DNA of 52,040 nt, taken from a virus. The notes below the pieces were generated by a model. The model saw only the letters and a program-made list of their open reading frames with translations, was not told the DNA's origin and ran no database searches. Below are positions 7,882 through 52,040 of the stretch, piece after piece (the stretch's first letter is position 1; the number at the start of each line of letters is the position of its first letter). The stretch lies in IMG/VR virus record IMGVR_UViG_3300024999_000147, positions 1 to 52,040 of that record; one strand, given 5' to 3'. The translations under genes and the position numbers were made by a program.

Positions 7882-10461
7882 TTAAACTATGACGATTTTT
7901 TTATTATCTCTATATTTTTGAGATGCATCTTTCCATAATCCTTTTTGTTTTTCCTTCCAGCAATCTTTACAAAATTTAATTCTATTTGAAACTATTTTTA
8001 CACGTTTTCCACAGTTTTCACACATTATATATCCATTTTCTAAACTTTCTTTGATATTATTCTTCATATTTTCTACAATTATATTGCCAAAACATTGCCA
8101 TAAAGTTTCTTTAAACCTACTTTTAGAAATATTATATAAATGTTTAACTAAAACATCAGTTATATAATATTCATCTTTATACATACTAATTAATTCATTT
8201 CTAAAACTATCAAAAATATATCTTGCATTATTTTTTGCTTTTTCATCTTTAAATTTACTACGTCTATTTATTATATTATAATTTTTTCTATTAAAATTAG
8301 TATAAAGTTTAATCAACATATTATCAATTTCAATATGCTTATTTTTCATTAATATCATATAATTAAATTTGCCTAAACTATTGCATTTAAAATTCATATT
8401 CATATCTGGAAATATATTTTCTAATCTATTAACTACACTATTATTTATAACTTCTACATTATTAATTTCTTTATTTTTTGCATAAATAAAGAAGTGAGGA
8501 GTTTTAAGTTTGGTATATTTCCTAATTAATTTTTTAATTTCTTCTGGTCTTTTAGGTTTATACAATGTCTTAGCATAGTCAATTACAAAATTATTTTCCA
8601 TACATAGTAATTTAATTACTTTTAGCATTTCTTCTTTTTTATCATAAATATTTACACTATCACTATTCCATATTTTTGTAATATCATTACTAATTATACC
8701 AATATTCCCACCAGTATATGCCAATCTTAATCCTTCATAAACACTATCGTTATTTATTTTACTAACTCCTGCTTTTGCCATATTGTAATATAAAGGTACA
8801 ATACCTTTCATATTTCTTTCACCAATTGAATTAATTAATGAATCTGAGCAAACTAGACTTTTATCTCCATCTACATCAAATTGTAAAATTTTTGAAATTA
8901 AATCTTTACAACTTGTATATACACCATTTGTTATAAACCATTTTCTTTTTTCACTATCTATCATATTATTCCTTATTGCCCATTCTCTATATAAATGTGG
9001 AGATCTTAAACAACTTAATTTATCTATATCTTTGTACAACCAACAAAAAACTTCTCCATCTTCTAATAAACCTTTTGGATTTTCATTTTTTGAAAATAAG
9101 TATTCACAAAAGGCATATAAATCAGGTGTAATAAAAGTGTATTTTGCATCCAATTCAATTTTTGCAGACCTTGCTTCTTTAATTTTACTTGCTTTTATTT
9201 GTTTTAATACTTCTCTAGTATAAACATCTGATAATAATTCAGGATAAATTTCTAACGCATGTTGAAAATAAGTTTTATCTTTATTATACTTAGTTGCTCC
9301 AAAAACTTTTAACATTGTGTTTCTATCACTTGCTATATTTTTAATATCATTTTTTGTTTTTTCACATATTATTTCTAATTCTTCATCATTAATATCTACA
9401 AGAGATTGTAACATCTGATAATTAATTTTAGCATTCTTAAAATATTGTTCTTCTTCATTACATTTACCTGCTTGACAATTATATTTATTAAAATTGGCAA
9501 TATATGAATTCCAGTCTTGATAAAACTTATACATCTTAAACTGACTTTTTGTAAAAATTATTTCTATATCATCTTTTAAAATATCAAATTCTTTGTTGTA
9601 TATATCTTTTACAATCCCATGATTTTTTTCAGGATTAAGTTTATTTTGCTCTTTTATAAATCTATCAAAGGGGAAGGGTACTAATAACCCCTTCACCCAA
9701 GGTAGACGTACCATCATACTTTTTTTACTTTTTTTAGGAAGTATCATTCCACATCCATCTGTATGACAAATTGGAATATCCATTTCTTTTCTAGTAATTT
9801 CATAAGTTTTATCGTCAATAAAATCTACAACACCATTAACCATAGTTTCCATATCTTCAACAACAATAGATTTACTAATATCAAAATCATCCCATATATC
9901 TGTTGCCGAATTACAGAGTGCCAAATATGCTAAATACTTATTAACATTCATTCCACCAAGATTATTTATATCTTCTATGGTTAGTCCACACATTAATTCA
10001 TTCATATGCTTGTTTAATAAAGATTCTTTAATAAAAACAGTTTTCTTTGTTCTTATTTGTCCAGCAGAAGCAGTAAAACAAACATATTTTTCGTTATTAT
10101 GTATAAATCCATTTAAAATTATATCTTTAATAATATCAAAAAAATATGCTCTAACAATTATAATATCATCATATAATTTATTTACCTCTAATTTTAAATT
10201 TCTTGTTAATACAGATTCAAAAACTGATACTATATTATAATTATTAATTGCTTTAGGATTAAGTTTTCTTATAATTTTATTCATATTGAATTCTTCATAT
10301 AATTCATTTTTTATACACTTTATTTCATTCTTACATTTTAATTTACCATCTTTTTTTAAACTATATAATACATTTAAATGTTTATGTATTTCCATTTCTT
10401 TTTCATTATAAAATGCAGAAGTATCAACACTATAAATATGTACTTGTTTATCTAATGCCAT
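7882..10461 (-). CDS. Candidate YonO-like single-chain RNA polymerase
   Basis: 859 aa. The key evidence is LQFDVDGDKS at residues 526-535: the DxDGD metal-binding motif of double-psi beta-barrel RNA polymerases. It is preceded by CLRSPHLYREW (~484-494), which occupies the place of the RNP..HPG-type segment in YonO/QDE-1-like enzymes. TASAGQIRTKK (~130-140) and MMVRLPWVKGLLVPFP (~249-264) could belong to the first barrel. The C-terminus is a zinc finger (CENCGK ... FCKDCW) with a basic tail. Phage SPbeta YonO (about 900 aa) transcribes late genes as a single chain; this protein has a similar length. ATG 10461 behind AAAGGAG; strong terminator downstream. The assignment rests on motifs; a divergent RNA-dependent polymerase role cannot be excluded. 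Confidence 0.65.
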   Translation of the reverse strand: MALDKQVHIYSVDTSAFYNEKEMEIHKHLNVLYSLKKDGKLKCKNEIKCIKNELYEEFNMNKIIRKLNPKAINNYNIVSVFESVLTRNLKLEVNKLYDDIIIVRAYFFDIIKDIILNGFIHNNEKYVCFTASAGQIRTKKTVFIKESLLNKHMNELMCGLTIEDINNLGGMNVNKYLAYLALCNSATDIWDDFDISKSIVVEDMETMVNGVVDFIDDKTYEITRKEMDIPICHTDGCGMILPKKSKKSMMVRLPWVKGLLVPFPFDRFIKEQNKLNPEKNHGIVKDIYNKEFDILKDDIEIIFTKSQFKMYKFYQDWNSYIANFNKYNCQAGKCNEEEQYFKNAKINYQMLQSLVDINDEELEIICEKTKNDIKNIASDRNTMLKVFGATKYNKDKTYFQHALEIYPELLSDVYTREVLKQIKASKIKEARSAKIELDAKYTFITPDLYAFCEYLFSKNENPKGLLEDGEVFCWLYKDIDKLSCLRSPHLYREWAIRNNMIDSEKRKWFITNGVYTSCKDLISKILQFDVDGDKSLVCSDSLINSIGERNMKGIVPLYYNMAKAGVSKINNDSVYEGLRLAYTGGNIGIISNDITKIWNSDSVNIYDKKEEMLKVIKLLCMENNFVIDYAKTLYKPKRPEEIKKLIRKYTKLKTPHFFIYAKNKEINNVEVINNSVVNRLENIFPDMNMNFKCNSLGKFNYMILMKNKHIEIDNMLIKLYTNFNRKNYNIINRRSKFKDEKAKNNARYIFDSFRNELISMYKDEYYITDVLVKHLYNISKSRFKETLWQCFGNIIVENMKNNIKESLENGYIMCENCGKRVKIVSNRIKFCKDCWKEKQKGLWKDASQKYRDNKKIVIV

Positions 10462-23804: not shown

Positions 23805-24515
23805 ATGCAAACTGTAATAGTTAATAAATTTATTATAGGTGCAATGGCATTATTTGTAATGTTAGGTATGAATAATTTACTATTTAAAAGTGGTAATATT
23901 GATGTAAGAATATATAGACATGATAATAATCAATTTTTTGGTGAATTGATTATTAAAGATAAGAAATTACCTTTGATTGTAAATGTAGATGGTGATAATG
24001 ATAGCAATAATAGTGAGAAAACTTATAATGAGAATAAAAATTATCATGAAGATAAGGAATATACTGAGTATAAAGAGAGTAACGATAAAAGGGAAATAAA
24101 TGAGAATAAACAATATGATGAAAATAAACAGTATAATGAGCAAAAAGATCATAATATTAATAATAATTCTAATAAAAAAGAGGAAATAATTAATAAAAAT
24201 GAAGATTATAGTAACAAAAAAGAAGAAAAATTTAATGAAAATATTAAGATTACAGATGATAAAACTCCTGGAAGTATAGATATTATTATTAAAAATGGTG
24301 ACATTGAAGTTAATATTAATAGAGATATAGGAAGCAGAGAAATGAGCGAAATAGATAAAGAGATTTGTAGGAAAAGTATTGATGCTGTAGTTGATTTTAT
24401 TCAAAACATTAAAGGAAATAGTAAAAGTAATATTAAAAATAATGTTGTTGAAAAGGTTAAAGGATTTAAAGATTATATTTCAAGAAAGAAAGAAGGTAGG
24501 TGGTTTAAATGGTAG
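23805..24515 (+). CDS. Membrane-anchored protein with Asn/Glu/Lys repeat linker
   Basis: 236 aa. One N-terminal membrane helix (FIIGAMALFVMLGMNNLLF), a short beta segment, and a long low-complexity linker (~70-140) with repeated NENK/YDENKQYNEQK units. A C-terminal globular part follows (IDIIIKNGDIEVNI, then helical VVDFIQNIKG) with a basic end. It overlaps the FtsK-type gene by 7 nt, indicating translational coupling. Function unknown; the topology suits an extracellular or periplasm-spanning linker. Confidence 0.6.
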   Translation: MQTVIVNKFIIGAMALFVMLGMNNLLFKSGNIDVRIYRHDNNQFFGELIIKDKKLPLIVNVDGDNDSNNSEKTYNENKNYHEDKEYTEYKESNDKREINENKQYDENKQYNEQKDHNINNNSNKKEEIINKNEDYSNKKEEKFNENIKITDDKTPGSIDIIIKNGDIEVNINRDIGSREMSEIDKEICRKSIDAVVDFIQNIKGNSKSNIKNNVVEKVKGFKDYISRKKEGRWFKW

Positions 24516-25816
24516 ATAAGAACAATATTAAAGAAAATTTTACAAAATATTTAGAACAATTATGCTATAAACCTTTAAAAGAAAAAAAGAAAGAGGATTT
24601 AAAAACTACTATTAAGAAAATGATTCGTACTAGGAAAAGTAGAAGTTTAGAATCAGAAATTGAGAATATTATGTTTGAATGTGGATTATATAATAATTCA
24701 GGTGATTACGCCATGCATATAGAAACTATTAAGGATGAAAATAACGAAAATCATTATACTACATTATGGAAATTACCACATTCATTAACATTTAAAAAAT
24801 ATATTGATAAGGTTGATAACTTTGCTAATTCATTGATTGCTCAAGTAATTATTGAAGAAGCAAATGGATTATTGAAGATAGAAGTGTGGAAAGGTATTGT
24901 TCCTAGAAAAGTTAATTATAATTTTAATACTATAGAATATTTAGATAAATACGTATTACCAATACCTCTAGGAAAATGCCAAATGGGTTTAGTTGTATGG
25001 GATTTACTGGATACATTAAATGTGCTTATTGCAGGGAGTACAGGTGGAGGCAAAAGTGTATTGGCAACATCATGGGCAGATGCATTATTACAAAATCCAG
25101 ATGTATTATTATTTATAATAGATTTAGCAAAAACAGATTTTATTCATTTAAAAGATTATACCTATTTTGCTGGAGATGTAGAGATTGCAAGAGAAATATT
25201 AGATATGTTATGGGATGAAGTAGTTAGGAGATTAGATTTATTAGTTTATTATAAGAAAAGGAGATTAAGAGATTATAACTTATCCTATCCAAATAATAAA
25301 TTGCCTTATTTAATATTATTTATTGATGAATTTGCTTTTACTGCTCCTGGTAAATTTCATAATAAAGAAGAAAAAGAATTATTGCATTATTTACAGAAAA
25401 AGACATACGATTTAGCACAATTAGGAAGAAAAGCAGGAATAAGATTAATTATATGTATGCAACGACCTGACAGAGAATTAATATCTCCTATTATTAAGAA
25501 TAATCTGACAGCTAGAATTGCTTTCAAATGTGGAGATAAAGGTCATAGTTTAACTGTATTAGGCAATACTAATGCATTTTATTTACCTGACGTTGATGGT
25601 AGATTTATATCTTTATATAAGAATAAACAAATTGAAGCACAGGCATTATATTTAGATCCTGATATAGCAGAAGATAGATGTAAATTGTTTAATAATTTGT
25701 ATGATAGAAGAAAAGCATATGCATCATACTTCTACAAAGGTGATGATATTTATGTTGGAGAGCAATTTCAAATACAAGAACATGAATACCAGACAAAAAG
25801 GTTATTACCGAGATAA
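24509..25816 (+). CDS. FtsK/SpoIIIE-type DNA translocase (conjugation-type ATPase)
   Basis: 435 aa. Walker A GSTGGGKS at 176-183, LFIIDLAKTDF shortly after, Walker B LILFIDEFAF at ~268-277, and the family-typical IICMQRPD and FKCGDKGHSL segments. No N-terminal membrane helices are evident, unlike host FtsK. It resembles the Tcp/ConQ-like coupling ATPases of Gram-positive conjugative elements and phage-plasmid segregation ATPases. It is translated with the upstream membrane proteins and the downstream relaxation-like protein, so the cassette probably moves DNA at the membrane. Confidence 0.85.
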   Translation: MVDKNNIKENFTKYLEQLCYKPLKEKKKEDLKTTIKKMIRTRKSRSLESEIENIMFECGLYNNSGDYAMHIETIKDENNENHYTTLWKLPHSLTFKKYIDKVDNFANSLIAQVIIEEANGLLKIEVWKGIVPRKVNYNFNTIEYLDKYVLPIPLGKCQMGLVVWDLLDTLNVLIAGSTGGGKSVLATSWADALLQNPDVLLFIIDLAKTDFIHLKDYTYFAGDVEIAREILDMLWDEVVRRLDLLVYYKKRRLRDYNLSYPNNKLPYLILFIDEFAFTAPGKFHNKEEKELLHYLQKKTYDLAQLGRKAGIRLIICMQRPDRELISPIIKNNLTARIAFKCGDKGHSLTVLGNTNAFYLPDVDGRFISLYKNKQIEAQALYLDPDIAEDRCKLFNNLYDRRKAYASYFYKGDDIYVGEQFQIQEHEYQTKRLLPR

Positions 25817-26507
25817 GTGTATAGTAGAGACAATAGATCAATTTGAATGTTTAAATACAGAACAAATATATTATTTGTTTTTTACTAATATAAAATATGG
25901 GATAGTTAAGTGCAGAGAAAGATTAAGAATATTAAAAGAAAAAGGTAAAATTAATTCAATTAGGGTAGATATTAATGAATGTAATTATTATTTTACAAAT
26001 AAAAAATCTAAATTTATGATTCATGATATAAATAGAAATTGGGGATATATTTATTTATTATATATGTATAAGTTTAAAGAATATTATAAATTTGTTGAAA
26101 TTAAGAATGAATATGTTTTTAAATGTGGTCAAAGAGCAGATGGAATAATTGGATTTAGAAATTATGTTACTAATGAACATAGATATTTAATAATTGAAAG
26201 TGATAGAATAGATAGCAGGAATAGATTTAATAAGATTAAAGAATATGTTGATATTTATAGAGAAGGTAGATATAAGAATGAATTCTGGTATAAAAAGGTT
26301 AGTAGATTCCCTCATGTATTAATTGTTTGTGATAGTGAAAAGAAAAAGGATAAGGTATTAGAGATTGAGAAGAAAGATAATATTAAGTTTATTGTTTTAG
26401 ATAAGAGCGTAGGAAAGGAGAATAAATTAAGTTTAAAATTTATTGTTTTAACTGTAGATGAGATAAAAAAGGAGGTTATTAACTATAGAAAAAGAATTAG
26501 TTATTGA
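25782..26507 (+). CDS. Replication-relaxation-like protein
   Basis: 241 aa from ATG 25782 (35-nt overlap with the FtsK-type gene; an upstream in-frame ATG is deep inside it). N-terminal winged-helix: CIVETIDQFECLNTEQIYYLFF, then RLRILKEKGKI. A nuclease-like fold follows (CGQRADGIIGF, RYLIIESDRID, RFPHVLIVCDS). This matches the replication-relaxation (Replic_Relax) family found with FtsK-type ATPases on Firmicute plasmids. Expected to bind origin or transfer DNA; activity not proven by motifs. Confidence 0.65.
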   Translation: MNTRQKGYYRDKCIVETIDQFECLNTEQIYYLFFTNIKYGIVKCRERLRILKEKGKINSIRVDINECNYYFTNKKSKFMIHDINRNWGYIYLLYMYKFKEYYKFVEIKNEYVFKCGQRADGIIGFRNYVTNEHRYLIIESDRIDSRNRFNKIKEYVDIYREGRYKNEFWYKKVSRFPHVLIVCDSEKKKDKVLEIEKKDNIKFIVLDKSVGKENKLSLKFIVLTVDEIKKEVINYRKRISY

Positions 26508-33013: not shown

Positions 33014-34270
33014 ATGCCAGAATTAGTAAAATGTTTTCATTGTGACACTGAGTTTAACTTTTCAGAATTAACAAAAATTGACTATGACTATTATTGCCAG
33101 GAGTGCATTGACGAAAATTTTACCAAGTGTAGCGAATGCAGGGAATTAACACATAACAACAATATTTCTTACGATAGTTCCGATAATGCTTACTGTGAGG
33201 ATTGTTTTTCCGAAAAAGTAATTATCTGTGAACACTGCAACGACTCTATACATATTAACGATGCAGAAACAACTGCCAACGGCGATCGTTATTGCTATGA
33301 TTGTTTCAATAATCATTCCACCGCTTGTGATTGGTGTGGAGAAGTCCACCACGATGATGATATACACCATAATCAACATAACCAGGATCTTTGCGAAAGT
33401 TGCTGGGAGAATGCAAGTTGTTGTGAAAATTGTGGGGAATGGCTCCAAGATGATGCTACATATTCCCATAACGATTGTACCTATTGTGAGCAATGTTACA
33501 ACGATATAGAAAAATTTATTCATCCTTATTCCCATAAACCAAATCCAATTTTTCATGGCGAAGGCAACGATCAATTTGGACTGGAAATAGAAGTCGATGA
33601 AGGCGGTAAGTCAGAAGCCAACGCCGAAGGATTATTAGAAATCATGAATTTTCAAACAGAGGATAAAATTTACATTAAAGAAGACGGCAGTCTTAACGAT
33701 GGATTTGAAATAGTCAGTCATCCTGCAACCCTCTCCCAACATTTAACAGTATTTGACTGGGAAGAATTGTTAAAAGAAGCTAAAACCCTTGGTTACACTT
33801 CCCACGATGCAGGCACTTGTGGAATGCACGTACATATCAGCAGGGATGCATTCGGCAATACAGAACTTGAGCAGGATCTAAATATTACCAAGTTATTGCT
33901 TATAACAGAAATATTCTGGGACAAATTGGTAACATTTAGTCGCCGAGACGAAGCTCAATTATCAAGATGGGCTAAAAGATACGGATTAACTTCAGATTCC
34001 GACGAACTCCTAAAAACTGCTAAACGCTCAAATCGTTACCATGCAGTTAATTTAGATAATTTTCACACCATAGAATTAAGAATTTTCCGTGGCACTCTAA
34101 ACTATACAACTTTTGCAGCAACCTTGCAATTATGCCAGTTATTGCTGGATATTTGTCGAAACTATAAAATCCAGGATATCCAACAAATAACCTGGGAAAA
34201 GGTAACAACTCATGCTAGCGAATACGAATATATGGAACTCCAAAAATACCTACAAAAAAGAGGCTTATAA
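33014..34270 (+). CDS. Zinc-finger amidoligase
   Basis: 418 aa, ATG 33014 behind GGAGGTG. Residues 1-162 hold a series of treble-clef/LIM-like Cys pairs (CFHC, CQEC, CSEC, CEDC, CEHC, CYDC, CDWC, CESC, CENC, CEQC). Residues 188 to ~400 fit the amidoligase fold, related to glutamate-cysteine ligase and glutamine synthetase: FGLEIEVDEGG, IKEDGSLNDGFEIVSHP, CGMHVHISRDAF and HTIELRIFRGTL. These carry the acidic and His residues that bind ATP-metal. Family members are predicted to form amide bonds on peptides or proteins. The next gene is a class II glutamine amidotransferase, which fits a shared pathway. Confidence 0.85.
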   Translation: MPELVKCFHCDTEFNFSELTKIDYDYYCQECIDENFTKCSECRELTHNNNISYDSSDNAYCEDCFSEKVIICEHCNDSIHINDAETTANGDRYCYDCFNNHSTACDWCGEVHHDDDIHHNQHNQDLCESCWENASCCENCGEWLQDDATYSHNDCTYCEQCYNDIEKFIHPYSHKPNPIFHGEGNDQFGLEIEVDEGGKSEANAEGLLEIMNFQTEDKIYIKEDGSLNDGFEIVSHPATLSQHLTVFDWEELLKEAKTLGYTSHDAGTCGMHVHISRDAFGNTELEQDLNITKLLLITEIFWDKLVTFSRRDEAQLSRWAKRYGLTSDSDELLKTAKRSNRYHAVNLDNFHTIELRIFRGTLNYTTFAATLQLCQLLLDICRNYKIQDIQQITWEKVTTHASEYEYMELQKYLQKRGL

Positions 34271-34288
34271 CACAATATAAAAATAAAT

Positions 34289-34315
34289 AAACCCTTTGAC
34301 CGGGTTTAATTTTTT
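34289..34315 (+). terminator. Intrinsic terminator
   Basis: AAACCC (34289-34294) pairs with GGGTTT (34302-34307), followed by AATTTTTTG. Confidence 0.8.
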
Positions 34316-34381
34316 GCAATATCTCTATAACAGATTACCATATTTCACCTTTTAAATTGTATCAAATACCAAACAATTCAC

Positions 34382-34410
34382 TTGTTAATATTCCCTGTCT
34401 GTGATATAAT
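34382..34410 (+). promoter_or_regulatory. Sigma-A promoter
   Basis: TTGTTA (34382-34387), 17 nt, TATAAT (34405-34410); drives the amidotransferase gene. Confidence 0.65.
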
Positions 34411-34441
34411 AAACTATCAAAATAACTAGGAGGTAACATCT

Positions 34442-35065
34442 ATGTGTATAATTTTACATAAACCAATTAACATTCAACTCCCAGATATTCAAACATTAAA
34501 AACCTGTTTCCAAAACAACCAGGACGGGGCCGGGTTTATGTATCAACATGATAACTCTGTACATATTCAAAAAGGATTTATGACATTCAATTCACTCATA
34601 ACAGCACTTGATCACCTCCAAAAAAATATCAATATAATAAACACCAACCTAACGATCCACTTCCGCTTGGCTTCACACGGCAAAGTAACACCAGGCAATT
34701 GTCACCCTTTCCCAATAACTATCAACGCCAAACAATTAAAATCCAAATCCTGTATAACAAATCTAGCAGTGGTGCATAATGGTATTATTCCATTTACTTC
34801 CTATAACAGATCAATATCAGACACTATTATATTTGTCAAAGAATACCTTACAGAAATTAAGGATAATCTATTTAACCCTATAACAGCAGAACTAATCAGA
34901 CATGCCACAAAAAGTAAATTTATCATAATGTCACCTGATAATATCCAATTAATAGGAGAATTTATCTTAGATGAATATGATCAATGCTATTATAGCAACG
35001 ACTCATATATTCCTTATTATGGGTATTATGATAAAGAGGAAGAATATAACTATATTAACTATTAA
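34442..35065 (+). CDS. Class II glutamine amidotransferase-like protein
   Basis: 207 aa, ATG 34442 behind AGGAGG. MCIILHKP places Cys2 as the N-terminal nucleophile after Met removal. FQNNQDGAGFMYQ, LTIHFRLASHGKVTPGNCHPFPI and LAVVHNGIIPFTS are the class II (Ntn-hydrolase) glutaminase signature, including the HFR and HNG motifs. No synthase domain follows, so it would supply ammonia to a partner or hydrolyse an amide itself. The neighbouring amidoligase is the natural partner candidate. C-terminal tail Tyr-rich and acidic. Confidence 0.85.
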   Translation: MCIILHKPINIQLPDIQTLKTCFQNNQDGAGFMYQHDNSVHIQKGFMTFNSLITALDHLQKNINIINTNLTIHFRLASHGKVTPGNCHPFPITINAKQLKSKSCITNLAVVHNGIIPFTSYNRSISDTIIFVKEYLTEIKDNLFNPITAELIRHATKSKFIIMSPDNIQLIGEFILDEYDQCYYSNDSYIPYYGYYDKEEEYNYINY

Positions 35066-35148: not shown

Positions 35149-35332
35149 CTCAATTTTCAAATCCCTACTCCTCTATAACAGCAGCCGACATAACACCAGT
35201 CAAAAAACCACCTTCACAGGATGGCCAATAAGCCACTTAAAAACAATTTAACATATATTATATCCTACATTCCCTTAAAACTTATCACATAGCAATAATT
35301 AGATATAAAACCAATAAAAATATAAATATACC

Positions 35333-35361
35333 TTGACGACTACTAACCATTTTGATATAAT
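35333..35361 (+). promoter_or_regulatory. Sigma-A promoter
   Basis: TTGACG (35333-35338), 17 nt, TATAAT (35356-35361); upstream of the J-domain gene. Confidence 0.7.
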
Positions 35362-35438
35362 TATTCCTAGCACCATACATAGTAACACCTCGTATCAACT
35401 CTTTGAAAACTAAATATAATTAACAGGAGGCGTACATA

Positions 35439-35936
35439 ATGAAAATTAATCATTTCCTTAACATTAACACCTTAGAAGAATTAAAATCAGCTTATCGCAA
35501 ACTAGCAAAACAATTTCACCCAGACATCAACAAAGCTCCCGAAGCACTTCAGATCATGAAAGAAATCAACACAGAATACGAATTCTTAGCTCAACAACTG
35601 AAAAATGAAAGAGGTTACACGGAAACCAAAAAGCAAGCCAACGATTTTATTTCCATAATAGACCAGCTCCTAAAATATAACAATATAGAAGTGGAAATAA
35701 TTGGCACATGGTTATGGGTAAGAGGCAAAGGAACTTTCCCCATAAAGGATTTTTTACAGGATACACTGGGAATGATATACACGAAAAGCCATAAAGCTTT
35801 TTACTGGTATGCAGGATGCGTAAAAAAGGTTAAGCGGAGCAGCAAGCAAAGCATGGATAAAATCCGGAATAAATACGGCAGTGTAATAGTTAAATCCGAT
35901 AACGATAATAACTTTACACCATCACCGACAATGTAA
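35439..35936 (+). CDS. J-domain (DnaJ-like) protein
   Basis: 165 aa, ATG 35439 behind AGGAGG. The first ~60 residues are a J domain: TLEELKSAYRKLAKQFHPDI with the HPD motif, then ALQIMKEINTEYEFLAQQL. It lacks the Gly/Phe and zinc domains of full DnaJ. The C-terminal part has a GTWLWVRGKG strand pair and KAFYWYAGC, a combination seen in plasmid- and phage-borne J proteins. It probably recruits host DnaK to an element-specific client. Single-gene unit with promoter and terminator. Confidence 0.85.
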   Translation: MKINHFLNINTLEELKSAYRKLAKQFHPDINKAPEALQIMKEINTEYEFLAQQLKNERGYTETKKQANDFISIIDQLLKYNNIEVEIIGTWLWVRGKGTFPIKDFLQDTLGMIYTKSHKAFYWYAGCVKKVKRSSKQSMDKIRNKYGSVIVKSDNDNNFTPSPTM

Positions 35937-35946
35937 ATATAAATCA

Positions 35947-36000
35947 AAAACCCTATTCAATAGCTGATTAAATTTAGTAAAATTGAATAGGGTTTTATTA
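35947..36000 (+). terminator. Intrinsic terminator
   Basis: AAAACCCTATTCAA (35947-35960) pairs with TTGAATAGGGTTTT (35983-35996), followed by ATTA. Confidence 0.75.
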
Positions 36001-36057
36001 TGTCCTTTTCTCTTTCTCCACTCCTTATAATTCCTCCTCACCCGGTTAATACTCTTC

Positions 36058-36111
36058 CTACAATCAGTTTTAAAGCCGTATAAAATAATTTTACATACTC
36101 TAGCACCTAAA
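36058..36111 (+). repeat. Intergenic repeat, copy 3 of 3
   Basis: TACAATCAGTTTTAAAGC, TAAAATAATTTTACATACTC and TAGCACCTAAAA in order; close to the copy at 32,669. It marks the end of the C-rich block. An IR (TTAACTATC/GATAGTTAA) follows at about 36,168-36,210, ahead of the next gene. Confidence 0.5.
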
Positions 36112-36235
36112 AACCTTAAAACGCCTCGTATAAAGATAATTATATATAATTGGATATAATAATATTAACTATCATATATTATGATTATGTATACTATAGA
36201 TAGTTAATAATTTAATACATAAGGAGGTCTTTTTA

Positions 36236-36592
36236 ATGATAAAATTAATGCAAAATTTGAGCGATGAGGCGTTTGAAACTATTTCCAATGTAATAAAAGA
36301 ATCTATTGCGTATGAAGTTGCTCGTAATCGAAAAGCAAAAATAGTATTAAATTTAGGTATGACTTATGAAATTTCAAAAGCAATAATTGAAAAACAACCA
36401 GGATATATTACATTATGTTTAGAATTTGCTAGAAAAGTATCAGGAATCAGAATTCCAACGTCTGTTATAAGGGAAATTATTACTGAAAAAGTATGGCTAA
36501 GTTTTAACGAAGACACTAATCAATGGTATGCTTCAGAAGAAAAAAATTGTTTTATAAGGCCACTATTGGCCTTTTATTGTTTATTAAAATAA
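36236..36592 (+). CDS. Hypothetical protein, C-terminus runs into a terminator hairpin
   Basis: 118 aa, ATG 36236 with AAGGAGG. Helical text (FETISNVIKESIAYEVARNR) then beta (ITLCLEFARKVSGIRIPTS). The last residues (CFIRPLLAFYCLLK) are encoded by an AAGGCCA/TGGCCTT hairpin followed by TTATT, which looks like this gene's terminator. An A7 run just before it would give EEKIVL and a stop if one base shorter, so the 3' end may be a frameshift artefact. Confidence 0.6.
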   Translation: MIKLMQNLSDEAFETISNVIKESIAYEVARNRKAKIVLNLGMTYEISKAIIEKQPGYITLCLEFARKVSGIRIPTSVIREIITEKVWLSFNEDTNQWYASEEKNCFIRPLLAFYCLLK

Positions 36593-36601
36593 CAAATATA
36601 C

Positions 36602-36630
36602 TTGACAATTATAATATTATTGTGTATACT
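36602..36630 (+). promoter_or_regulatory. Consensus sigma-A promoter
   Basis: TTGACA (36602-36607), 17 nt, TATACT (36625-36630). Confidence 0.75.
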
Positions 36631-36667
36631 ATTAATTAATCACATAACAATTAAAGGAGTGGAGCGA

Positions 36668-36862
36668 ATGTTAGCGCAGGAAATTCAATCGTTATTAAGT
36701 GAAAAGGTATTAAAACAAATTGAGGACAAATCAATTCAGAATATTATTAGAGGAATTATATTTAATTCTAGTAATAAAATTGACTGGGACGATGCATTAT
36801 ATAAAGTTTATAAGAATATGCCAGAATTAATAATGGAGAAGGTAACACAAAATGAAAAATAA
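36668..36862 (+). CDS. Small hypothetical protein
   Basis: 64 aa, ATG 36668, 8 nt after AAAGGAG: MLAQEIQSLLSEKVLKQIED, then IIRGIIFNSSNKIDWDDALY. Helical and acidic. Overlaps the next gene by 11 nt, so translation is coupled. Confidence 0.55.
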   Translation: MLAQEIQSLLSEKVLKQIEDKSIQNIIRGIIFNSSNKIDWDDALYKVYKNMPELIMEKVTQNEK

Positions 36863-37127
36863 AATTGAAGAACAATTAAAACTTAATAAATCTTATCTAA
36901 GAAGTGCCGAACTAGGGTTAAACGATAAACTGAATAAGGCAGTAAATGATTTAGAGCGAATGGCCAAAGAAGTAAAGTATATTATTAATGATAATAATTA
37001 TGCTTTAGATGAACGGGTGAATAGAATCATACATTTAATCCATTGGGGTATTGCTAATATGCATATTGACAGTATGAGCGAAAATCAGTTAGATATAAAA
37101 CAATCAAAGGACAAATTGAAATTTTAA
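36852..37127 (+). CDS. Small coiled-coil protein, 3' end probably frameshifted
   Basis: 91 aa, ATG 36852. Helical (KSYLRSAELGLNDKLNKAVN, LERMAKEVKYIIND). After SENQ the adjacent frame reads RYKTIKGQIEILKELIEDNN and stops at 37153, right at the terminator. That looks more like a natural C-terminus than the annotated DIKQSKDKLKF. A shift near 37,090 is therefore suspected. Confidence 0.55.
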   Translation: MKNKIEEQLKLNKSYLRSAELGLNDKLNKAVNDLERMAKEVKYIINDNNYALDERVNRIIHLIHWGIANMHIDSMSENQLDIKQSKDKLKF

Positions 37128-37151
37128 AAGAGTTAATCGAGGATAACAATT

Positions 37152-37180
37152 AAGGCCACTAACGGCCTTATTTTTTATTT
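37152..37180 (+). terminator. Intrinsic terminator
   Basis: AAGGCC (37152-37157) pairs with GGCCTT (37164-37169), followed by ATTTTTTATTT. Confidence 0.8.
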
Positions 37181-37211
37181 AAAATTAATCAAACTATTTT
37201 ATAAAAACATA

Positions 37212-37240
37212 TTGCATTTATTTTATTATTATGTTAAAAT
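37212..37240 (+). promoter_or_regulatory. Sigma-A promoter
   Basis: TTGCAT (37212-37217), 17 nt, TAAAAT (37235-37240); precedes the ring nuclease gene. Confidence 0.6.
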
Positions 37241-37306
37241 AACATTGTCAGTAAATAAACAAATCAAAATAAATTAAATAAAAATAAACTTTAGGAGGAT
37301 TTTTTA

Positions 37307-37639
37307 ATGAAAACTAATCAAATTATCGGTATCTTAAACACTTCTATCATCACAGCAGACGGAAACTATACCTTAACAACCATTTCAACAACTCAAGCTC
37401 AAGAATTAGCACAAAACAACCAAATATTATCCGCTGTAGGTCACGAAGCAACAGCACAGGTATTAACTACTTTGCTAGGTGTAGGTATCCCGGTTAACCG
37501 GATTATGTATGCTCAGGAAGTCGGGCAACAAGCAATAGTTTTAAAAATAAACGGAAGAATTCCAGAAGGGAAAATTTTATCTCTGGAGGATATTGAGGAA
37601 ATCGGTTATACTTTAAAGTTGATGATAAGAAATAGTTAG
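37307..37639 (+). CDS. DUF1874 ring nuclease, AcrIII-1-like anti-CRISPR
   Basis: 110 aa, ATG 37307 with AGGAGG. The whole length fits DUF1874: GILNTSIITADGNYTLTTIS, then LSAVGHEATAQVLTTLLGVG, IPVNRIMYAQEVG and INGRIPEGKILSLEDIEEIG. The His in SAVGHEATA (His46) corresponds to the catalytic His of the SIRV1 gp29 family. Those viral enzymes cut cyclic tetra-adenylate and so switch off type III CRISPR signalling; cellular Crn2 versions are also known. Own promoter, in an early-type small-gene array: consistent with an anti-defence role. Confidence 0.92.
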   Translation: MKTNQIIGILNTSIITADGNYTLTTISTTQAQELAQNNQILSAVGHEATAQVLTTLLGVGIPVNRIMYAQEVGQQAIVLKINGRIPEGKILSLEDIEEIGYTLKLMIRNS

Positions 37640-37736
37640 AATATTTATTTGTGGACATTGTTGTATTTAGTATATAATCTATATAACAGTGTCCCATAAT
37701 AAGTATTTTGATTAATATAAATGGAGGTTATTTATA

Positions 37737-38243
37737 ATGGATTTAAGAAGAAAAATAACTTTTGGTTATAAGTCCTCTAGTTATCCCTATCATGCAGAAG
37801 ATTTTGCCGATTCTTTATATGGCGGTGTTATCTTAGTAGACGTTCAAAATGTCGAAAAGATAGACAGTATTGAAATAATAACCTTAAAAAGCGGAAATAA
37901 GTTGGTTATAGATAAAACTAATCCAGGATATCGGGGTGAGTGTTTTGCTTACATAATCCCTGCTGATGGTGTGATGGAAAAAATTAATAATTGTCAGATT
38001 AATTATATCTATAAGCAAACACAACTTAGGCATGGTATTTGCTTAAATGGGATAAGGGTTTTATATCTTAATAGTAGATTGTTTACTATAGATATAAGAC
38101 TTAAAAAAGGTCTTAGTTTTGCGGATATGGATAATAGATTAATCCGTAAGACTGAGATAATTGAAATAAAAGAAGTTAAATTGGAAGATTTTTGGGATGT
38201 CAAAAGGAATAAATCACCAGAAATAACTTCTTCACTGTCGTAA
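37737..38243 (+). CDS. Hypothetical protein sharing a module with the next gene
   Basis: 168 aa, ATG 37737 with GGAGG. Contains SIEIITLKSGNKLVIDKTNP and YRGECFAYIIP, clearly like IETITLPDGNSLIIDYSRRN and YGEYYAHIIS of the following gene. The rest (LNGIRVLYLNSRLFTIDIRL, KTEIIEIKEVKLEDFWDVK) is beta-rich. No known domain. Confidence 0.6.
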   Translation: MDLRRKITFGYKSSSYPYHAEDFADSLYGGVILVDVQNVEKIDSIEIITLKSGNKLVIDKTNPGYRGECFAYIIPADGVMEKINNCQINYIYKQTQLRHGICLNGIRVLYLNSRLFTIDIRLKKGLSFADMDNRLIRKTEIIEIKEVKLEDFWDVKRNKSPEITSSLS

Positions 38244-38271: not shown

Positions 38272-38790
38272 ATGTTATTAATAGAAAACCCGAAATACAT
38301 ACAGTACGATAAAAGTATATTATCCCAATTGCCCGACATGGGGTATGAGAAGCATACAGTGAACGATCATTATATGAGGAGTATTGCTATTGAGAAAAGT
38401 AAAATAGAAGAAAACACATTTCCTGGGTTCTGGTGGAAAACTGGATTGCAGGTAAAATATTTGTATGAAGATTTCAATGAAAAACACCGTGCAGGTGCAT
38501 CTGTTGTATATGTTCAACATGGCGGATCTCCGATATTTATACAAGAATATACACATATTCGTCTGTATAGAAGTATATTTATAGATATTAATTGTAGGAA
38601 TTCTGATAATATTGTTGGCTTGCCATGTGCAAGATCTGGAAATCCTAATGTCTTTATAGAATCTGTTGGAAATCCCAGCAGAGAAGGAGATATCGAAACG
38701 ATTACTTTACCGGACGGTAACAGTCTTATTATAGATTATTCCCGTCGAAATGCATATGGGGAGTATTACGCCCATATTATATCAAAATAA
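38272..38790 (+). CDS. Hypothetical protein, partial paralogue of the previous gene
   Basis: 172 aa, ATG 38272 with GGGAGG. N-terminal part unique (GFWWKTGLQVKYLYEDFNEK, VVYVQHGGSPIFIQEYTHIR). The C-terminal ~35 residues are the shared ETITLPDGNSLIIDYS ... GEYYAHIIS module. Unknown role; co-directional and closely spaced with its neighbours, probably one transcript. Confidence 0.6.
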   Translation: MLLIENPKYIQYDKSILSQLPDMGYEKHTVNDHYMRSIAIEKSKIEENTFPGFWWKTGLQVKYLYEDFNEKHRAGASVVYVQHGGSPIFIQEYTHIRLYRSIFIDINCRNSDNIVGLPCARSGNPNVFIESVGNPSREGDIETITLPDGNSLIIDYSRRNAYGEYYAHIISK

Positions 38791-51665: not shown

Positions 51666-51911
51666 ATGAAAAAATGTCAATGTGGATTTGAAACTGGAAT
51701 TAATAGTTATAATATTTGTCCTATTTGTGGTGAGCAATTAGAAATAGATAAAGGTAAAAGAAAGTATATGATGGGGTTATCAGCCGAAGAAAGCTATGAA
51801 AAAGAAATTAAAATGACATACGAAGAAGCCAAAATAGTTAACAGAGTATTAAAAGAATTGAATTATGGAGCAAAAAATTGGTGTGGTAGATGTTGGATAG
51901 ACTTTGAATGA
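51666..51911 (+). CDS. Zinc-ribbon protein
   Basis: 81 aa, ATG 51666 with AAGGAGG. CQCGFETGINSYNICPICGE is a zinc ribbon; a helical part (MTYEEAKIVNRVLKELNY) and a C-terminal CGRCW follow. Unknown function. Confidence 0.65.
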   Translation: MKKCQCGFETGINSYNICPICGEQLEIDKGKRKYMMGLSAEESYEKEIKMTYEEAKIVNRVLKELNYGAKNWCGRCWIDFE

Positions 51912-51936
51912 AAGATCGGTTTTGTTATGTTGATGC

Positions 51937-51965
51937 TTGACATAGAAACAAAAGTATAATATAAT
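51937..51965 (+). promoter_or_regulatory. Consensus sigma-A promoter
   Basis: TTGACA (51937-51942), 17 nt, TATAAT (51960-51965). Confidence 0.75.
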
Positions 51966-51998
51966 TAAAGAAATACATAAAAGGAGCGTGTTTTTATA

Positions 51999-52040
51999 AT
52001 GACACAAGAAATTAATAGAATTAAGTTTATCAATATTGAA
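51999..52040 (+). CDS. Start of a gene cut by the window edge
   Basis: ATG 51999 behind AAAGGAG, own promoter; the first 14 residues are MTQEINRIKFINIE. Too short to identify. Confidence 0.55.
   Translation, partial: MTQEINRIKFINIE

Follow-up and report, generated by a model that had tools for sequence, protein, structure and literature searches.

The DUF1874 gene and its surroundings

The stretch of DNA analysed here, called the window throughout, is an IMG/VR virus record of 52,040 bp (IMGVR_UViG_3300024999_000147; completeness not given). An ORF on its plus strand at 37307–37639 has an ATG start, its own stop and a good Shine-Dalgarno sequence close 5′ (TAGGAGGA), and the opposite strand is broken by stops throughout. 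It encodes a protein of 110 aa, MKTNQIIGILNTSIITADGNYTLTTISTTQAQELAQNNQILSAVGHEATAQVLTTLLGVGIPVNRIMYAQEVGQQAIVLKINGRIPEGKILSLEDIEEIGYTLKLMIRNS. The features referred to below are:

7882–10461, minus strand: YonO-like phage RNA polymerase, 859 aa (phrog_8308, E = 9e-283; 51% identity to SPBc2 YonO)
33014–34270: amidoligase with N-terminal zinc-finger-like repeats, upstream of the ring nuclease gene
34442–35065: class II glutamine amidotransferase-like protein, upstream of the ring nuclease gene
35439–35936, plus strand: J-domain protein with a C-terminal GTWLWV domain (GTWLWVSG/LGFKWS-type), upstream of the ring nuclease gene
37151–37170, plus strand: intrinsic terminator 5′ of the ring nuclease gene (terminator scan; folding −10.7 kcal/mol, z −4.0)
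37212–37240, plus strand: candidate own promoter, TTGCAT - 17 nt - TAAAAT, with TG-extended −10 and weak −35 (consensus scan only)
37292–37299, plus strand: Shine-Dalgarno sequence TAGGAGGA of the ring nuclease gene (sequence, SD scan)
37307–37639, plus strand: gene for a predicted DUF1874/AcrIII-1-family ring nuclease, 110 aa (PF08960, fold match to 2j6b and 6scf, conserved residues)
37442–37444, plus strand: codon of His46, the predicted catalytic residue (invariant in both family alignments and the PDB alignments)
37516–37639, plus strand: 3′ part of the gene kept in the sister contig G001 (L100 14206–14339, tail of ORF L002 7950–8150)
37556–37567, plus strand: RIPE codons, Arg84 to Glu87 (Arg and Glu invariant in both alignments; predicted cyclic tetra-adenylate (cA4) pocket of the dimer)

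Family membership, predicted fold and active site

The protein matches the Pfam family PF08960 (STIV_B116-like, i.e., DUF1874) at E = 8e-27 with 93.8 bits (cut-off 26), covering residues 9–102 of 110 and profile positions 3–100 of 101, which is far above chance. Family members of known structure were recovered from the PDB both by phmmer (AFV3-109 at 1e-15; also STIV B116, SIRV1 ORF114/gp29 and the Crn2 domain of Csx1-Crn2) and by a profile built from 13 phage and viral DUF1874 sequences (AFV3-109 at 4e-34, Csx1-Crn2 at 8e-15 and SIRV1 gp29, 6scf, at 1e-11); a profile made from the full set of nine DUF1874 rows proved too heterogeneous for scanning. The Pfam and phmmer matches bear out the first-pass annotation, which had recognized the DUF1874 pattern over the whole protein. 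An NCBIfam scan of the protein returned no family at E ≤ 0.01. The Csx16 model of PADLOC, which probably spans DUF1874, matched at 4e-20, PF08960 being the stronger match. The predicted chemistry would be unchanged even if the protein were Csx16, because Csx16 too is a ring nuclease acting on cA4, and its fold resembles 2J6B (PMC12409355).

Residues S42, G45, H46, R65, R84, E87 and Y101 are invariant in two family alignments, together with L10, N11, A31 and N64 among nine family members and with T49, G88, L91 and G100 in a second set (n = 13), and the window protein has every one of them. The segments SAVGHEATA, with His46, and GRIPEGK, with Arg84 and Glu87, are present as they had been described from the sequence, and H46, R84 and E87 all belong to the invariant columns. 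PDB alignments equate His46 with His47 of SIRV1 gp29, His45 of AFV3-109 and His495 of Csx1-Crn2; the H47A variant of gp29 is catalytically inactive (PMC7213978), and the H495A variant of Csx1-Crn2 does not degrade cA4 (PMC7293037). The pocket of the AFV3-109 dimer holds His45, Arg64, Arg83 and Glu86 (PMC1796864), all of them equivalents of invariant residues in the window protein, with Arg83 and Glu86 corresponding to Arg84 and Glu87.

An AlphaFold2 model of the monomer (pLDDT 90.4, pTM 0.83) was compared with the PDB using Foldseek. All 16 matches with E ≤ 1e-3 were DUF1874 chains, including Csx1-Crn2, 6scf and the cA4 complex 8y7g, and the 17th match followed at E = 0.36. The TM score was 0.81 against AFV3-109 (2j6b) and 0.79 against SIRV1 gp29 (6scf), so that at a pLDDT of 90 the predicted fold agrees with that of gp29, the structure against which the first-pass annotation had proposed to check it. 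Membership in the AcrIII-1/Crn2 family is hence as sure as sequence and model allow. With family, fold and active site supported by profile, alignment, model and the tree described below, cA4 degradation is well founded by homology, and we consider cA4 cleavage by the window protein very likely.

Two other molecular activities were weighed against this evidence. DNA binding was reported for AFV3-109, which was also likened to viral transcription factors (PMC1796864), and several family records are still labelled “DNA binding protein”; a role as a DNA-binding transcription regulator is nevertheless very improbable, as the pocket holding the catalytic His is lined by the conserved residues, and cA4 cleavage has since been established (PMC7213978, PMC7293037; structures 6scf and the cA4 complex 8y7g). 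The protein might also act as a cyclic-nucleotide sponge, or as an enzyme that has changed its substrate from cA4 to cA3, cA6 or CBASS nucleotides, given that phage sponges and other nucleotide breakers are known (PMC12751052, PMC12409355). We regard this as improbable too, if a little less so: the catalytic His is present, and the described family members degrade cA4 (PMC12409355, PMC7293037).

Phylogenetic placement and comparison with known systems

In a maximum-likelihood tree of 24 DUF1874 sequences, the window protein falls inside a clade of bacterial-phage proteins (support 97/90) that excludes the archaeal viral proteins as well as the one Crn2 candidate from a type III locus, on a Vibrio aerogenes plasmid; the tree places the protein no more finely than in the phage clade, and long branches lead to the Crn2 and SIRV2 proteins. 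DUF1874 proteins from Fusobacterium phages (phiFN37, phiBB, Fnu1, phiKSUM) and Vibrio phage Rostov 7 are 47–57% identical to the window protein over 91–97% of the length, share its motifs and are likewise phage genes in small-ORF regions. Their carriers belong to other phage lineages, however, and no neighbour gene common with the window was detected except for a J-domain protein (Fnu1, phiKSUM). In phiKSUM, DUF1874 forms the C-terminal half of a 206-aa protein (L096 1701–2321).

The AcrIII-1 proteins SIRV1 gp29, AFV3-109 and STIV B116 resemble the window protein in fold (TM 0.70–0.82), catalytic His, Arg/Glu pocket, size and their occurrence as stand-alone viral genes; they are only 20–35% identical to it, and come from crenarchaeal viruses, whereas the window represents a tailed bacterial phage related to SPbeta. 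Cellular Crn2 of type III loci, including Csx1-Crn2 fusions, shares domain and active site. The Vibrio aerogenes candidate, a YddF/DUF1874 gene (L126 2989–3306) adjoining cas1 and near a RAMP CRISPR gene, is 33% identical to the window protein and outside its phage clade, and the window gene, in contrast to such Crn2 genes, belongs to a phage; none of the window proteins scanned was a Cas protein. YddF of ICEs (ICEBs1-like; a B. velezensis plasmid, Alkalicoccobacillus) belongs to the same Pfam family but is about 28–36% identical, sits within conjugation-type modules and forms a separate tree branch. Being virus-encoded, away from a type III CRISPR locus and placed in the tree among phage proteins, the window gene is a viral AcrIII-1 rather than a Crn2.

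DUF1874 is rare in phages: 40 of 50,697 phage records matched at E ≤ 1e-5, none of these 40 being a phage named for Bacillus, and a published survey found AcrIII-1 in 36 of 28,114 phage genomes (PMC12409355). The family was thus already known in phages; what is added here is an SPbeta-related lineage, to which AcrIII-1 is now extended, and a pair of an intact and a broken allele.

Phage lineage and host

Besides the YonO-like RNA polymerase, the minus-strand half of the window encodes YonJ-like nuclease pieces, PhoH, helicases, a DNA methyltransferase and homing endonucleases. At 24509–26507, an FtsK/SpoIIIE-type ATPase gene precedes a weak match to Replic_Relax (below cut-off), a plasmid- or ICE-like replication/transfer pair in a phage. 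A sister contig, IMGVR_UViG_3300024999_000065 (92 kb; here G001), is colinear with the whole window at about 68–99% nucleotide identity and adds a YonF-like terminase, a YonG homologue and YomU/YomV-like virion proteins, at weak to moderate identity. With YonO and YonJ in the window and YonF, YonG, YomU and YomV in its sister, the phage is by its gene content a divergent member of a broadly defined SPbeta group and a distant relative of Bacillus phage SPbeta.

The host is probably a low-G+C Gram-positive bacterium. For the 25 kb of the window tested, no near-identical entry was found among phage records. Relatives of its YonO in genomes did not exceed about 60% identity; they came from Brevibacillus, Paenibacillus and short MAG contigs carrying the labels Acholeplasmataceae and Gallicola, and none closer occurred in 28 genomes of the Acholeplasmataceae MAG’s family or 391 genomes of the Gallicola MAG’s class. 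DUF1874 exceeded the cut-off in 4 of the 391 genomes of the class of one YonO-bearing MAG and occurred in one of 50 YonO-carrying genomes, there directly behind a conjugation-type ATPase gene in an ICE-like setting.

Five of these 50 genomes contain Cas10 (PF22335, E < 1e-30). Only matches below this threshold were counted because PF22335 also picks up diguanylate cyclases, as seen with E. coli controls; the two Cas10 proteins checked were genuine Csm1 and Cmr2 (TIGR02578 at 7e-224 and TIGR02577 at 7e-59). YonO-bearing hosts can therefore have type III CRISPR, which makes it a realistic opponent for such phages.

Expression signals and neighbouring genes

The ring nuclease gene had been described as part of an early-type array of small genes. 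The array itself is evident as a dense plus-strand run of small ORFs with Shine-Dalgarno sequences and several near-consensus sigma-70-type promoters. Intrinsic terminators are over-represented in the region (15 observed vs 2.5 expected), and promoter-like sites show no clear excess (62 vs 51). Given the strong terminator at 37151–37170, the ring nuclease gene is probably a transcription unit of its own with its own promoter. The candidate for the latter is weaker than the near-consensus promoters of several neighbours, e.g., at 36602, 40582, 41211 and 41671; early expression would therefore be a guess that the promoter does not support. Just 3′ of the gene, an inverted repeat GGACA ... TGTCC surrounds a TATAAT box (37653–37694) in a stretch conserved in G001, and could be an operator for the next gene.

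The suggestion that neighbouring genes may be further anti-defence factors found no support, as no anti-defence or defence family matched among the neighbours scanned (Pfam, PHROGs, PADLOC). The amidoligase and the amidotransferase-like protein (33014–35065) are both 82–86% identical in the sister phage; relatives of the amidoligase are encoded by genes that bear the label “glutamine amidotransferase” in Marvin-type genomes of Mycobacterium phages. At 34% identity, the J-domain protein resembles one encoded directly after DUF1874 in Fusobacterium phage Fnu1, and in phiKSUM a relative lies 3.3 kb from DUF1874. Its long form was found in four distinct phages of the collection searched, and the co-occurrence with DUF1874 in two of the four (both Fusobacterium) is suggestive. 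As a partner of the ring nuclease it was set aside and is kept as a lead only, because the same architecture exists in Enterococcus phage Efs 1-1-1 and the Manatee Spring podovirus, where no DUF1874 match was present in the 8–9 kb around the J-domain gene. The adjacent proteins encoded at 37737–38243 and 38272–38790 have a 44-residue motif in common (IEIITLKSGNKLVID...FAYII; 41% identity), located near the N terminus of one and at the C terminus of the other. The remaining small ORFs tested near the ring nuclease gene gave no informative family.

A broken allele in the sister contig

In G001 the ring nuclease gene is reduced to its final ~37 codons, fused in frame to MIIKAKFNSKCPVCGKEIQIGQEVSWNPGS, which looks from its sequence like the start of a zinc-ribbon protein, and window positions ~35331–37516 are replaced by other DNA. 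The resulting chimeric ORF of 66 aa (L002 7950–8150, equal to L100 14130 onward) thus combines a zinc-ribbon-like start with a DUF1874 tail, half of each gene being gone. Lacking His46 and the N-terminal half, this allele constitutes a natural active-site loss. The chimera may be an assembly artefact; this is countered by the G001 DNA 5′ of the junction (G001 74.1–74.3 kb), which departs from the window over about 2 kb before the contigs are colinear again.

Between the two contigs, 20 of the 111 positions in the shared codons differ, 12 of them at third positions. The NG86 method gave a dN of 0.09, a dS of about 1.0 and a dN/dS of about 0.09 on a small sample, 37 codons, the first two of which touch the junction. 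The low dN/dS and the third-position bias indicate that purifying selection acted on the protein during at least some of the divergence. What fits these sequences best is a gene that was ancestral at the locus and stayed under selection at the protein level for a time, until recombination disabled it in the sister lineage.

Proposed function and its relation to type III CRISPR

We conclude with high confidence that the window gene encodes a viral DUF1874 (AcrIII-1/Crn2) ring nuclease whose dimer would cut cA4 so that type III effectors stay off. By analogy with the family, two subunits would form a dimer and bind cA4 in a pocket of the invariant His46, Arg84 and Glu87 together with Asn11, Ser42 and Asn64-Arg65, and cA4 would be cut to linear di-adenylates (A2>P), as members of the AcrIII-1/Crn2 family have been described to degrade cA4 (PMC12409355, PMC7293037; also PMC7213978). 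Once cA4 is removed, cA4-activated effectors such as Csx1-type RNases would not be activated when the type III complex senses phage RNA. A benefit of this for the SPbeta-related phage in a type III host is less certain than the cleavage itself, and may depend on the host, since recombination has deprived the sister phage of the catalytic half. Of the first-pass reading as a cA4-degrading, AcrIII-1-like ring nuclease that disarms type III CRISPR, family, fold and active site are thus confirmed by profile, alignment, model and tree, and cA4 cleavage is predicted by homology; a natural anti-CRISPR benefit, judged by analogy, is plausible. The enzymology is strongly implied and the action in vivo is not, because the native function of AcrIII-1 in SIRV2 is disputed.

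The window protein could be a genuine cA4 ring nuclease that is ineffective as a natural anti-CRISPR, made too late or too weakly or serving another role, for instance the removal of stray cyclic nucleotides or the protection of a lysogen. Expressed from its native middle-stage promoter, AcrIII-1 was reported to fail as an anti-CRISPR in SIRV2 (PMC11065993), in line with a challenge to its native action there (Nature 2025 640:E8, as cited in PMC12751052); the weak promoter candidate behind a terminator and the loss of the catalytic half in the sister phage point in the same direction. Against this stand a reply which, as cited in PMC12751052, defends the original claim (Nature 2025 640:E15), the purifying selection on the codons shared with the sister, and the distribution of AcrIII-1, which suits an anti-defence role: it is by far the commonest phage ring nuclease and is seldom found in type III loci (PMC12409355). 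We consider an enzyme ineffective in nature a real possibility, albeit short of an even chance.

Returning to the ring nuclease as an agent against type III CRISPR, the gene may be an accessory locus of the SPbeta-related lineage that recombination switches, intact in the window and chimeric in the sister, and that tracks host type III CRISPR with cA4 signalling. This proposal is tentative and we would rather bet against it; if true, the two phages form a natural pair with which the disputed role as a native anti-CRISPR could be put to the test in bacterial phages. With the native role of the viral copies contested, an intact and a naturally disabled allele in phages colinear over 52 kb are a useful natural experiment. 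The window and G001 also end at the identical base inside a gene start (window 51908–52040, L101 12003–12135; last 133 bp 98.5% identical), which could mark the real end of the genome, the border of a repeat or an assembly break common to both.
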